This document shows positions 8,045-32,971 of a stretch of DNA of 64,000 nucleotides, one piece after another. Source of the DNA: Halalkalicoccus sp. CG83 (GTDB lineage: Archaea > Halobacteriota > Halobacteria > Halobacteriales > Halalkalicoccaceae); assembly GCF_037081715.1 (NCBI RefSeq), contig NZ_JAZDDH010000001.1, positions 1,860,001-1,924,000 on the forward strand. Reading direction: 5' to 3'. The notes below the pieces were generated by a model. The model did not search any database and was not told the DNA's origin. It was given only the letters and a program-made list of their open reading frames with translations. The translations under genes and the position numbers were made by a program. Numbering within the stretch: the stretch's first letter is position 1; every line of letters starts with the position of its first letter.

Positions 8045-8102
8045 GGTGGCACCACGGAACCGGTGTGGTTAACGATTTGCCACCGGGCGACCCTGGTAGA
8101 GT

Positions 8103-29166: not shown

Positions 29167-29445
29167 TCACTCCCTCAGAGCGGTCACGTACGCCGCGACC
29201 GCCTGGACGAGGTCGTTCTTCGAGGCGTCGTCGGCGTCCTTCACGAGCACCCGCCCCCGGGGTTCGTACTCGCGGGGATACGTGAGATCCCGCTCGATGA
29301 CCGCGTCGTAGCCCACCTGCTGGACGGCGGCGGCGATCTCGTCGACCGTTGGCTCGGGCACCGCGAGGCTCTCGGGGACGCGCCGGCCCTTCGATCGGGA
29401 GATCTCCGAATCGAGGTAGGCGGGCCAGATGACGTTCTCGACCAT
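29167..29445 (-). CDS. Signal recognition particle protein SRP19
   Basis: The 92-residue SRP19 binds 7S RNA helices 6 and 8 and prepares it for SRP54. Typical landmarks are [24 protein letters not shown] (residues 5-28) and the Pro/Arg-rich segment [15 protein letters not shown] (about 55-69). It is the first gene of the SRP19-Gar1-PSH group. A TATA-like TTTTACTTT lies upstream on the minus strand near 29467-29475, 20-30 nt before the ATG. Confidence 0.92.
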
Positions 29446-29485: not shown

Positions 29486-30589
29486 CTATCGCCGTCGCAG
29501 GAACAGGAAGGCAGCCAGCACGAGCGCCGCGAGCGCCGCCGCGATGCCGAAGCCGGGCTGGTCCTCGCCGGACTCGCCGGCGGAGTCATCGCCACCACCG
29601 GTCTCGTTCCCGGACTCGTCGGTCTCGTTCGCCTCCCCGCCCTCCTGGGCGGCCGCGTACGCATCGGAGTGGAACGTCTCGGCCAGCGTGTCGATCGCGT
29701 AGATCACCTGCGGACCGGGCTGGTTCATCCGGTTGGAATCGACGGCGACGACCTGGTTCTCCTGGCCGGCGGTGGTCTCGGAGAGCACCTGCTCGCTCAC
29801 CGGCGGCTCCTCGAAGTTATCGGGATAGACGATCCAGTCGGGGTCCTCCTCGATCACGACCTCCTCGCTGATCTGGCCGTAGAACTCGATCTCAGCCGTG
29901 CTACCCAGATTCTCGCCGCCCGCGGTCGTGACGATCTCCTCGATGAACGTCCCCTGGCCCGCGGTGAATCCGTCGCCCATCGCGTACAGAACGGTGGGCC
30001 GCTCCTCGCCCTCGACCGCCTCCTCGATCGCGCCGATCTCCTGGTTCATCCACTCGACCGACTCGTTCGCGCCCTCGCACTCGCCGACGAGCTGGCCGGT
30101 GGTCTCGGTGTTCGCGATCACGTCGTCGATCGAGGTCTCCGGTCCGAACTGGTAGACCGTCAGGCCAGCGTCGCGGAGCTGTTCGACCTGGTCCTCGTCG
30201 GCGACCGACGAGGCCACCACGAGGTCGGGTTCGAGCTGGATCACGCGCTCGGTACTGACGGTGATACCGTCGTCCTCCGTGATGTCCTCGGGCTCGTCGT
30301 GGCCCTCCAGGTAGTCGGTGTACTGGCCGACGGGCATCCCGACGACCTTATCGCGGGCGCCGATCTCCCAGAGCGTCTGGGCGTCACTCGGCTGCATGGC
30401 GACCACGCGTTGCGGTTCCTCCTCGATCGTCACCTCCTCGCCGGTCGCGTCCGTCCCGGTGAAGGGGAACTCACACTCCACCTGTGCCGCCGCGACGCCA
30501 CCGTGGTCTCCCGCCGCGCCGACGGCCCCTACCCCCATCGTCGAGATCAGGACGCACAGCGCGACGACCACTGATAGAAATCGATGCAT
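29486..30589 (-). CDS. btuF: Cobalamin/iron-type ABC transporter binding protein, PGF-CTERM
   Basis: The 367-residue exported binding protein has an N-terminal signal peptide (residues 1-25, ending around GAVGAAG) and a Fe/B12 periplasmic-binding fold (about 40-315: [43 protein letters not shown]). A Thr/Glu/Gly-rich linker follows, then a C-terminal PGF-CTERM sorting signal ([19 protein letters not shown] then RRR) that archaeosortase A would process for lipid anchoring. It delivers substrate to the BtuC/BtuD pair, which is divergently encoded. Cobalamin is favoured by similarity to haloarchaeal BtuF; a siderophore remains possible. The ATG at 30589 lies 29 nt from a symmetric TATA element. 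Confidence 0.85.
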
Positions 30590-30647
30590 GCACCGGACTG
30601 CGCTCCTGTTCAATAAATATTTACCTAAAGCAACTTTACTTTCCGCT
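30590..30647. promoter_or_regulatory. 58-nt divergent btuF/btuC promoter with one symmetric TATA box
   Basis: TAAATATTTA, a perfect 10-bp palindrome at 30614-30623, is centred at 30618.5. Its centre is 29.5 nt from the first base of the btuF ATG (30589) and 29.5 nt from the first base of the btuC GTG (30648). That distance suits a TATA box for a leaderless transcript in both directions. The rest of the gap is AT-rich (TTTACCTAAAGCAACTTTAC). A CCTAA half-site could belong to a metal-dependent regulator, but only one half is seen. Confidence 0.6.
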
Positions 30648-31733
30648 GTGTCGAGCCGTACGCTGACGGGGGCCTGGTCCGCTGGGTTGCTCGTCGTGCT
30701 GATCGGCGTGATCCTCCTGAGCACGGCGCTCGGACCCGTCCGGATCGACCCCGTGATCGTCGCGAAGGTGCTGCTCAACGCGCTGTCGATTCCCAGCGAA
30801 CTGGGTGCCTCGACGCCGATGGGCGTCGGGTCACTCACCGTCCCCGTCCCCCGCATCGAGACAAGACCCGCCTTCGCGTTCGTCGTCCCGGAGACCCACG
30901 AGACGATCGTCATGCGGATCCGACTCCCCAGGGTGCTGCTCGCGGCGGTCGTCGGCTTCGCGCTCGCCACCGCCGGCACGGTGATGCAGGGCTTCTTCCG
31001 CAACCCGATGGCCGACCCCTCGATCATCGGCGTCTCCTCGGGGGCGGCCGTCGGCGCCGTCGCGTCGATCGTCCTTCCGCTGGGAGTCGGCCTGCGTCCG
31101 GCGGCGTTCGTCGGCGCGGTCGTCACCGCGTTCGCGGTGTATCTCGTCGCCAGCGAGGGTGGGCGCACCCCGGTGGCGACGCTGCTGCTCGCCGGCATCG
31201 CGATCCAGACCTTCCTCGGGGCGGTGATCTCCTACCTGCTGATCAACAGCGGCGAGAGCCTCGAGCAGGCAGTCTACTGGCTGATGGGCCACCTCCACAA
31301 CAGCACGTGGTCCGAGGTCGGACTCTCGTTACCGGTCGTGATCCCCGTGTTCGTCCTCCTGTTGATCTACGCGCCCGACCTCAACGTCCTCCTTCTGGGC
31401 GAGGAGGACGCCCAGACGCTGGGGATCGAGGTCGAGCGAACCAAACGGGTGTTGCTCGCGGCCGCGAGCGTGATCACCGCCGCCGGCGTCGCCGTCTCGG
31501 GCGTGATCGGCTTCGTCGGACTGATCGTCCCTCACATGATGCGCCTGCTCGTGGGTCCCGACCACCGGATCCTGCTGCCGACGAGCGCGCTCGCGGGAAG
31601 CGTCTTCCTCGTCGCCACCGACACCCTCGCGCGCTCCGGTCCCGCCGAGGTGCCCGTCGGGATCGTCACCGCCGCGCTGGGCGCGCCCTTCTTCCTCTAC
31701 CTGCTGCGGAGCCGGGAGGTGCACGCGCTGTGA
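30648..31733 (+). CDS. btuC: Cobalamin/iron-type ABC transporter permease
   Basis: The 361-residue FecCD/BtuC-type permease has about ten membrane helices. The family signatures RLPRVLLAAVVGFALATAGTVMQ (about residue 90), NPMADPSIIGVSSGAAVGA (about 116-134) and GFVGLIVPHMMRLLVGPDHR (about 286) are intact; the last contains the contact with the ATPase. GTG 30648 is chosen because it follows the AT-rich promoter at leaderless distance. An ATG at 30588 would overlap the btuF start. The stop overlaps btuD (GTGA). Confidence 0.9.
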   Translation: MSSRTLTGAWSAGLLVVLIGVILLSTALGPVRIDPVIVAKVLLNALSIPSELGASTPMGVGSLTVPVPRIETRPAFAFVVPETHETIVMRIRLPRVLLAAVVGFALATAGTVMQGFFRNPMADPSIIGVSSGAAVGAVASIVLPLGVGLRPAAFVGAVVTAFAVYLVASEGGRTPVATLLLAGIAIQTFLGAVISYLLINSGESLEQAVYWLMGHLHNSTWSEVGLSLPVVIPVFVLLLIYAPDLNVLLLGEEDAQTLGIEVERTKRVLLAAASVITAAGVAVSGVIGFVGLIVPHMMRLLVGPDHRILLPTSALAGSVFLVATDTLARSGPAEVPVGIVTAALGAPFFLYLLRSREVHAL

Positions 31734-32971
31734 TCGACGTCCGCGACGTCGACGTTCGCTTGGGCGGCGTGCGCATCCTCGAGGACGTGAGCGCCCACGT
31801 CGACGAGGGTCGGTTCGTGGGCCTCGTCGGCCCCAACGGCGCGGGCAAGTCGACGCTGCTGCGGACGATCGGTGCCGTGCTCTCTCCCGACGCCGGAAGC
31901 GTGGTCCTCGACGGCGAGGACGTCCACGACCTCCCCTCGCGGGCAGCGAGCCGGCGGGTCGCCGCGGTCCCCCAGGACACGAGCCTCTCGTTCGACTTCG
32001 ACGTCCGTGACGTCGTCGCGATGGGGCGCACTCCCTACCGATCGCGGCTCCGACCCGGAGACGAGGGTGGCGACGCGATGGTCGCCCGGGCGCTCGAACG
32101 GACGGACACGGAGGAGTTCGCCGACCGTCCGATCGACTCGGTCAGCGGCGGCGAGCGCCAGCGGGTGGTCCTCGCGCGTGCGCTCGCCCAGGACACCCCT
32201 ATACTCCTACTCGACGAGCCGACCGCGAGCCTCGACATCAACCACCAGCTCCGCACGCTCGAACTCGTTCGCGACCTCGTCGACGAGGGAAAGACGGTGA
32301 TCGCGGCGATCCACGACCTCAACCTGGCGGCCCACTACTGCGACGAACTCGTGTTGCTCGCGGAGGGGCGGGTGCTCGAGAGCGGCCCGCCCGAGCGGGT
32401 GCTGACCGAGTCGAACCTCACTCGAGCGTTCGACACGCGGGCGGTCGTCAGCCGCCACCCCGTCACTGGCGCGGTCTACGTCACCGCGCTCCCCGAGACG
32501 AGTTCAGGGGATCGGGAGGGACGCGTCCACGTGATCGGTGGCGGCGCCAGCGTCTCAAGGGTGCTGTACGTCCTCTCCGCGGCGGGCTACGAGACCTCGG
32601 TCGGCGCGCTCAACGAGGGCGACTCGGACCTCGAGACCGCCCGGCTGCTCGGCATCGAGGCGGTCGCGGTCCCGCCCTTTGCTCCCGTCGACGAGGACGC
32701 ACGCGAGGCGGTACGCGAGCGCGTCGCGAGCGCCAACGTGGTCGTCGTCGGCGACTGCGAGATCGGGGAGGGAAACCTCGCGAACCTAGAGTGTGCTGCC
32801 GAGAGCGACCGGCTGGTGCTCGTCGAGGAACGCCCGTTCGACGAGCGCAACTACGCTGGCGAGGACGCGAAGAGGCGGTACGAACGGCTGCGATCGAGGG
32901 CGACCGTCGTCGACACCGGCGGGGTGCTCGGCGCGGTCGAGCGGGCGATCACCGACGAGGGGGAGGTTTAA
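31730..32971 (+). CDS. btuD: Cobalamin-type ABC ATPase with extra C-terminal domain
   Basis: The 413-residue protein has a normal FecE/BtuD ATPase in its first 255 residues: Walker A GPNGAGKST (about 35-43), the Q-loop in AVPQDTS, signature SVSGGERQR (about 140), Walker B ILLLDEPTAS and switch IHDLN. A second domain of about 150 residues follows (HVIGGGASVSRVLYVLSAAGYETSVGAL, then VVVGDCEIGEGNLANLE and a final VVDTGGVLGAVERAI). Typical BtuD is only about 250 residues. The extra domain looks like a Rossmann-like sensor. It is known in haloarchaeal homologues, but its role is unclear. Couples to btuC by GTGA overlap. Confidence 0.88.
   Translation: MIDVRDVDVRLGGVRILEDVSAHVDEGRFVGLVGPNGAGKSTLLRTIGAVLSPDAGSVVLDGEDVHDLPSRAASRRVAAVPQDTSLSFDFDVRDVVAMGRTPYRSRLRPGDEGGDAMVARALERTDTEEFADRPIDSVSGGERQRVVLARALAQDTPILLLDEPTASLDINHQLRTLELVRDLVDEGKTVIAAIHDLNLAAHYCDELVLLAEGRVLESGPPERVLTESNLTRAFDTRAVVSRHPVTGAVYVTALPETSSGDREGRVHVIGGGASVSRVLYVLSAAGYETSVGALNEGDSDLETARLLGIEAVAVPPFAPVDEDAREAVRERVASANVVVVGDCEIGEGNLANLECAAESDRLVLVEERPFDERNYAGEDAKRRYERLRSRATVVDTGGVLGAVERAITDEGEV

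Follow-up and report, generated by a model that had tools for sequence, protein, structure and literature searches.

The 58-nt gap between the divergent genes btuF and btuC probably combines a conserved core promoter that works in both directions with a regulatory site, and this is the explanation that best accounts for the comparative sequence data. The same data strongly support the sharing of one BRE/TATA core by btuF and btuC, because the core is conserved across the order and its btuF half is broken where btuF is absent. Together, the core and the adjoining box point to an apparently undescribed B12 control circuit.

Organization and conservation of the btuF-btuC gap

The locus lies in the window, i.e., the whole stretch of 64,000 nucleotides from Halalkalicoccus sp. 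CG83 that was analysed, and contains the following features.

29167..29445, minus strand: SRP19-like gene behind btuF (from a reading of its translation)
29486..30589, minus strand: btuF, PGF-CTERM-anchored corrinoid-binding protein, ATG start (TIGR04281, 448 bits; Peripla_BP_2)
30611..30627: conserved core CAATAAATATTTACCTA, putative shared bidirectional promoter (consensus CAAYAARTAYTTRNCTA, 100/100 loci scored)
30611-30613: CAA, probable BRE of btuC (kept in 4/4 sequences without btuF)
30614..30619, minus strand: predicted btuF TATA half TATTTA, with TTTA at -28..-25 from the ATG
30618..30623, plus strand: predicted btuC TATA half TATTTA, with TTTA at -28..-25 from the GTG
30625..30642: part of a candidate B12 box, CTAAAGCAACTTTACTTT (consensus CTAANNCAA-N6-TTG; logo, and the same motif at cbiT and cbi clusters)
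30648..31733, plus strand: btuC, B12 ABC permease, GTG start (NF007081, 586 bits, cut-off 461)
31730..32971, plus strand: btuD, corrinoid ABC ATPase (NF007082, 493 bits, below the cut-off of 537; ABC_tran)

The start of btuD overlaps the end of btuC, and btuD is a member of the btuC operon. The SRP19-like gene marks the ancestral order btuC-btuF-SRP19. The first bases of the btuF ATG (30589, minus strand) and the btuC GTG (30648, plus strand) enclose the 58-nt gap, and both start codons are backed by orthologues within the genus, which have GTG/ATG at identical spacing. The first-pass annotation had placed a perfect palindrome, TAAATATTTA, at 30614-30623 and had proposed it as one symmetric TATA box for both genes. 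Direct reading bears out this position: the centre, 30618.5, is 29.5 nt from the first base of each start codon, and 24 nt separate the palindrome from the codon on both sides. It occurs once in the window (0 in 100 shuffles) and once in the 3.64-Mb genome.

BtuC relatives were detected in 112/117 related genomes and their upstream regions were compared; the loci scored (n=100) are those in which tblastn detected both btuF and btuC. In every one of these, btuF is divergent from btuC, and one core with the consensus CAAYAARTAYTTRNCTAA is present (100/100), although the genomes are related and such counts are therefore not independent events. The distance from the core to the start codons is mostly 24-27 nt on both sides, and the total gap length, whose conservation had been proposed as a check, is mostly 58-62 nt. 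Positions -3 to -1 (CAA), 1-2 (AA) and 8 (T) are invariant in the 100 loci and position 7 is T in 98/100, while the bases outside the core are near-random. The exact pattern AAYAARTAYTTRNCTA was found in 90/114 genomes, nearly always as a single copy and at the btuF-btuC gap. Among the matches listed in a scan of all prokaryotes, most belonged to Halobacteriales and both genes were present at the core in 91/119 loci, the remaining loci being contig ends, diverged copies and scattered bacterial matches. A btuF paralogue beside cbiE keeps the core and the box with spacings of 25/26, and two further btuF paralogues keep them with spacings of 24 and 26; on the other side of those two, the open frames are short (37 and 49 codons), and cbiA and a CobT-like gene lie beyond.

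The perfection of the palindrome, on the other hand, did not survive the comparison. Only 35/100 loci are perfect, and TAAATATTTA itself occurs in 20/100; it is a species-level variant, and six other species of the genus have TAAGTATTTA or TAAGTATTTG. The perfect or imperfect state changed at least 14 times on the BtuC tree (116 rows), and no supported case of covariation was found for the paired positions 0/9 and 3/6 on the same tree. These three results rule out the perfect palindrome as a selected feature and indicate that it is incidental, whereas the pair of half-elements is selected. The restriction of the perfect form to one species of the genus and its many changes on the tree could also be taken to mean that an AT-rich palindrome has arisen by chance in a promoter gap that is itself rich in AT and has no two-way function. 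This is very hard to credit and already contradicted by the comparative data: the order as a whole retains the wider core with both spacings, and close to zero copies of the palindrome would be expected.

A probable single core promoter for two directions

Start codons throughout the genome of the window are preceded by an AT peak at -29..-26 and a weak A-rich BRE at -34 to -32. This resembles H. volcanii, in which the TATA motif is TTWT, 72% of protein-coding transcripts are leaderless, and GUG starts make up 6% of the leaderless class. Both btuF and btuC have a TATA-like element of the leaderless haloarchaeal type ~27 nt before the start codon, and the TTTA of a single TATA element at -28..-25 from both starts coincides closely with the genome-wide AT peak. 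Possible BRE bases flank this element, CAA/YAA on one side and NYAA, read from NCTAA, on the other; the haloarchaeal consensus CGAAA is not matched exactly.

In the proposed arrangement, the 10-bp core YAARTAYTTR would present the hexamer TAYTTR on each strand, with an overlap at the central TA. The right copy would be the TATA element of btuC and the left copy that of btuF, each ~27.5 nt from its own start codon, and both mRNAs should therefore be leaderless, with transcription predicted to start at or near the start codons. With TFB able to load on either side of a single TBP site, only one direction would then fire at a time. The mutually exclusive transcripts and the fixed stoichiometry of binding protein to permease that were proposed earlier could follow from such a shared core. 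One caveat is a minus-strand TTTAG inside the box, a possible alternative TATA element of btuF that would leave a leader of ~12 nt. A Shine-Dalgarno-led btuF was also considered and rejected: the AGGAG of the window, 13 nt before the btuF ATG, has no conservation in relatives.

The strongest evidence for a shared TATA element comes from a natural experiment, the fate of the core after loss of btuF. Three lineages have btuC without a divergent btuF (L022/L027, L016 and L109/L110); in L022/L027 a same-direction gene lies upstream of btuC, and in L109/L110 btuF is gone and the SRP19-like gene now follows directly. In these sequences the left half reads CACATA, TAGCTA or CACTTA, and the invariant AA has become AC or AG in 3/3 lineages, the losses of btuF numbering three lineages only. 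All of them retain CAA and a distance of 24-26 nt to the btuC start; the btuC half is kept in 3/4 sequences without btuF, being altered in L022. L109 and L110 are genomes of ~1 Mb in which btuF has seemingly been deleted between btuC and the SRP19-like gene. The earlier proposal of a single core for both directions is supported by the order-wide conservation of the core with both spacings and by the decay of the btuF half in lineages that lack btuF.

The conservation of the block, far above that of ordinary TATA boxes, and its specificity for B12 genes could instead mean that it is only a regulator's operator, with the palindrome as part of a protein site and the btuF and btuC TATA boxes separate or weak. 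We regard this as improbable, since the halves of the core have, relative to btuF and btuC, the position that TATA elements take genome-wide, no other AT-rich element exists at -27 of btuF, other B12 promoters have the box without the core, and the loss of btuF is followed by decay of its half, the btuC side being retained. Somewhat less unlikely is a pair of overlapping, functionally separate promoters, with TBP/TFB placements a few bp apart, whose firing would be correlated and not strictly exclusive. Such a pair would agree with the strand hexamers, which overlap by only 2 bp and have centres 4 bp apart, and with the asymmetric flanks (CAA versus NCTAA); however, the footprints of two initiation complexes would presumably overlap almost fully, which makes simultaneous occupancy unlikely. 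The single shared core remains the preferred reading.

The shared core had been called unusual, a view that needs correction on one side because bidirectional BRE-TATA-BRE promoters have already been described in archaea, and on the other because a few other short-gap divergent pairs in the genome share a central AT element. One such pair, separated by the same 58-nt gap at window positions 8045-8102, has one central AT element, GGTTAACGATTTG, and is a possible second two-way promoter; its translations read as an FAD-dependent oxidoreductase-like protein (minus strand) and an ornithine-cyclodeaminase-like protein (plus strand).

The B12 box and its candidate regulator

The first-pass annotation missed a conserved box beside the TATA element. 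In the logo of the 100 loci, a second element, CTAANNCAA-N6-TTG, abuts the core on the btuC side and makes up most of a 24-bp palindrome, CTAANNCAA-N6-TTGNNTTAG; the right arm NNTTAG of the full palindrome is not kept in the btuF-btuC copy, and the box in the genome of the window has a weak right side, with TTT instead of TTG. Elsewhere in the same genome, the 24-bp palindrome stands before cbiT (contig C1, 153499-153522) and, as an exact copy, between cobN and a ChlI/D-type chelatase gene (158037-158060). In relatives, the box is also found upstream of cbiX and cbiE, and it precedes 21/41 cbiT genes. The 148 exact matches in 114 genomes comprise 47 at btuF-btuC, 23 at cbiT and a further 28 not more than 25 kb from it. 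The 50 matches elsewhere are close to chance level, as a reversed control pattern gave ~60 (counted by eye). The motif thus occurs above chance at several B12 genes, with 98/148 matches at btuF-btuC or cbi clusters, and the 24-bp palindrome is a candidate for the operator of a B12 regulon in haloarchaea.

The TATA elements of cbiT and cobN, at -27, share bases with the right arm of the box, an arrangement that speaks for repression. In the btuF-btuC gap, the box lies directly next to the TATA element and covers the stretch from there to the btuC start, and a protein bound on it should affect both directions. The putative regulator, most likely a repressor, would respond to B12 or a corrinoid; when bound, it would block TFB/TBP access for btuF together with the start region of btuC, and both genes would consequently be released when B12 is scarce.

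Matches in hand-picked regions outside the B12 clusters are single sites and, since such matches are about as frequent as those of the control, they are only leads. A box match lies upstream of nrdR with a class I ribonucleotide reductase in L267, upstream of nrdR in L282 and upstream of a B12-dependent (class II) ribonucleotide reductase in L125; control of reductase choice by B12 through these sites, which are at chance density, is possible. In L268 and L269, two genomes in which no cbiT was detected, a match precedes a HAD-like gene, and cbiB follows that gene.

Beside cbiT, the genome of the window encodes a MarR-like winged-helix protein of 273 residues that contains DUF7839. From the association of gene neighbourhoods, it is the leading candidate for the regulator of the B12 box. 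The DUF7839 gene lies within 3 kb of cbiT in 18/41 genomes with cbiT; in 5 other genomes it is no more than 5 kb away from btuC. By chance, ~0.07 adjacencies to cbiT would be expected on the assumption of independent genomes, an assumption that does not hold. DUF7839 occurs in 113/114 genomes, usually as one copy, and some of these genomes lack this BtuC, which makes mere presence uninformative; comparison with solved structures gave only weak helix-turn-helix matches. In L126 (5827-5926), two B12 boxes lie between the DUF7839 gene and cbiT, one of them directly before the DUF7839 gene, a placement that suggests autoregulation. A haloarchaeal regulon in which a corrinoid-sensing DUF7839 repressor acts on CTAANNCAA-N6-TTGNNTTAG and controls uptake, synthesis, cobalt insertion and possibly ribonucleotide reductase genes has, in our estimate, an even chance of being correct. 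If so, B12 uptake would be controlled through a two-way promoter.

Comparison with known systems

In bacteria, B12 controls btu/cbi genes and the choice of ribonucleotide reductase through cobalamin riboswitches. The btuF-btuC locus differs from these in its predicted leaderless mRNAs and its DNA palindrome, which argue for a protein regulator. A cobalamin riboswitch was rejected for this gap on leader length, because predicted leaders of ~0-5 nt and the 24 nt from core to start leave no room for a structured 5' leader RNA.

Two-way archaeal promoters are already known (PMC6640164). In the bidirectional BRE-TATA-BRE promoters of Pyrococcus furiosus, one TATA element with BREs on both strands fires both ways from start sites ~49-50 bp apart, TBP being symmetric and TFB setting the direction, and the reverse product is mostly a non-functional antisense RNA (PMC6640164). 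At btuF-btuC, in contrast, the two products are proteins that act together in one transporter, the architecture is conserved throughout the order, and the starts are predicted to lie ~59 nt apart, measured between the start codons. DNA symmetry of core elements has also been given as the cause of two-way initiation in bacteria and archaea (Warman et al. 2021, as cited in PMC10268837); as described in that citation, the symmetry is widespread and intrinsic, whereas the btuF-btuC element would be the conserved promoter of a specific gene pair. The order-wide conserved functional pair and the B12 box both appear to be undescribed in the literature searched. The pair would represent an intrinsically two-way archaeal promoter that is used for both partners of one transporter, as opposed to antisense noise, and that is kept by selection across an order.

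In Halobacterium salinarum, TrmB controls the cob/cbi genes, and an unidentified second regulator has been inferred from expression dynamics (PMC3794607). The TrmB motif TACT-N7-8-GAGTA (PMC3794607) is unlike CTAANNCAA-N6-TTGNNTTAG, and the box was accordingly rejected as a TrmB site. Like TrmB, the proposed circuit would place haloarchaeal B12 genes under transcription-factor control; the adjoining B12 box would supply these genes with a concrete operator and point to a candidate for their regulator, and it may be relevant to the second regulator of H. salinarum (PMC3794607).
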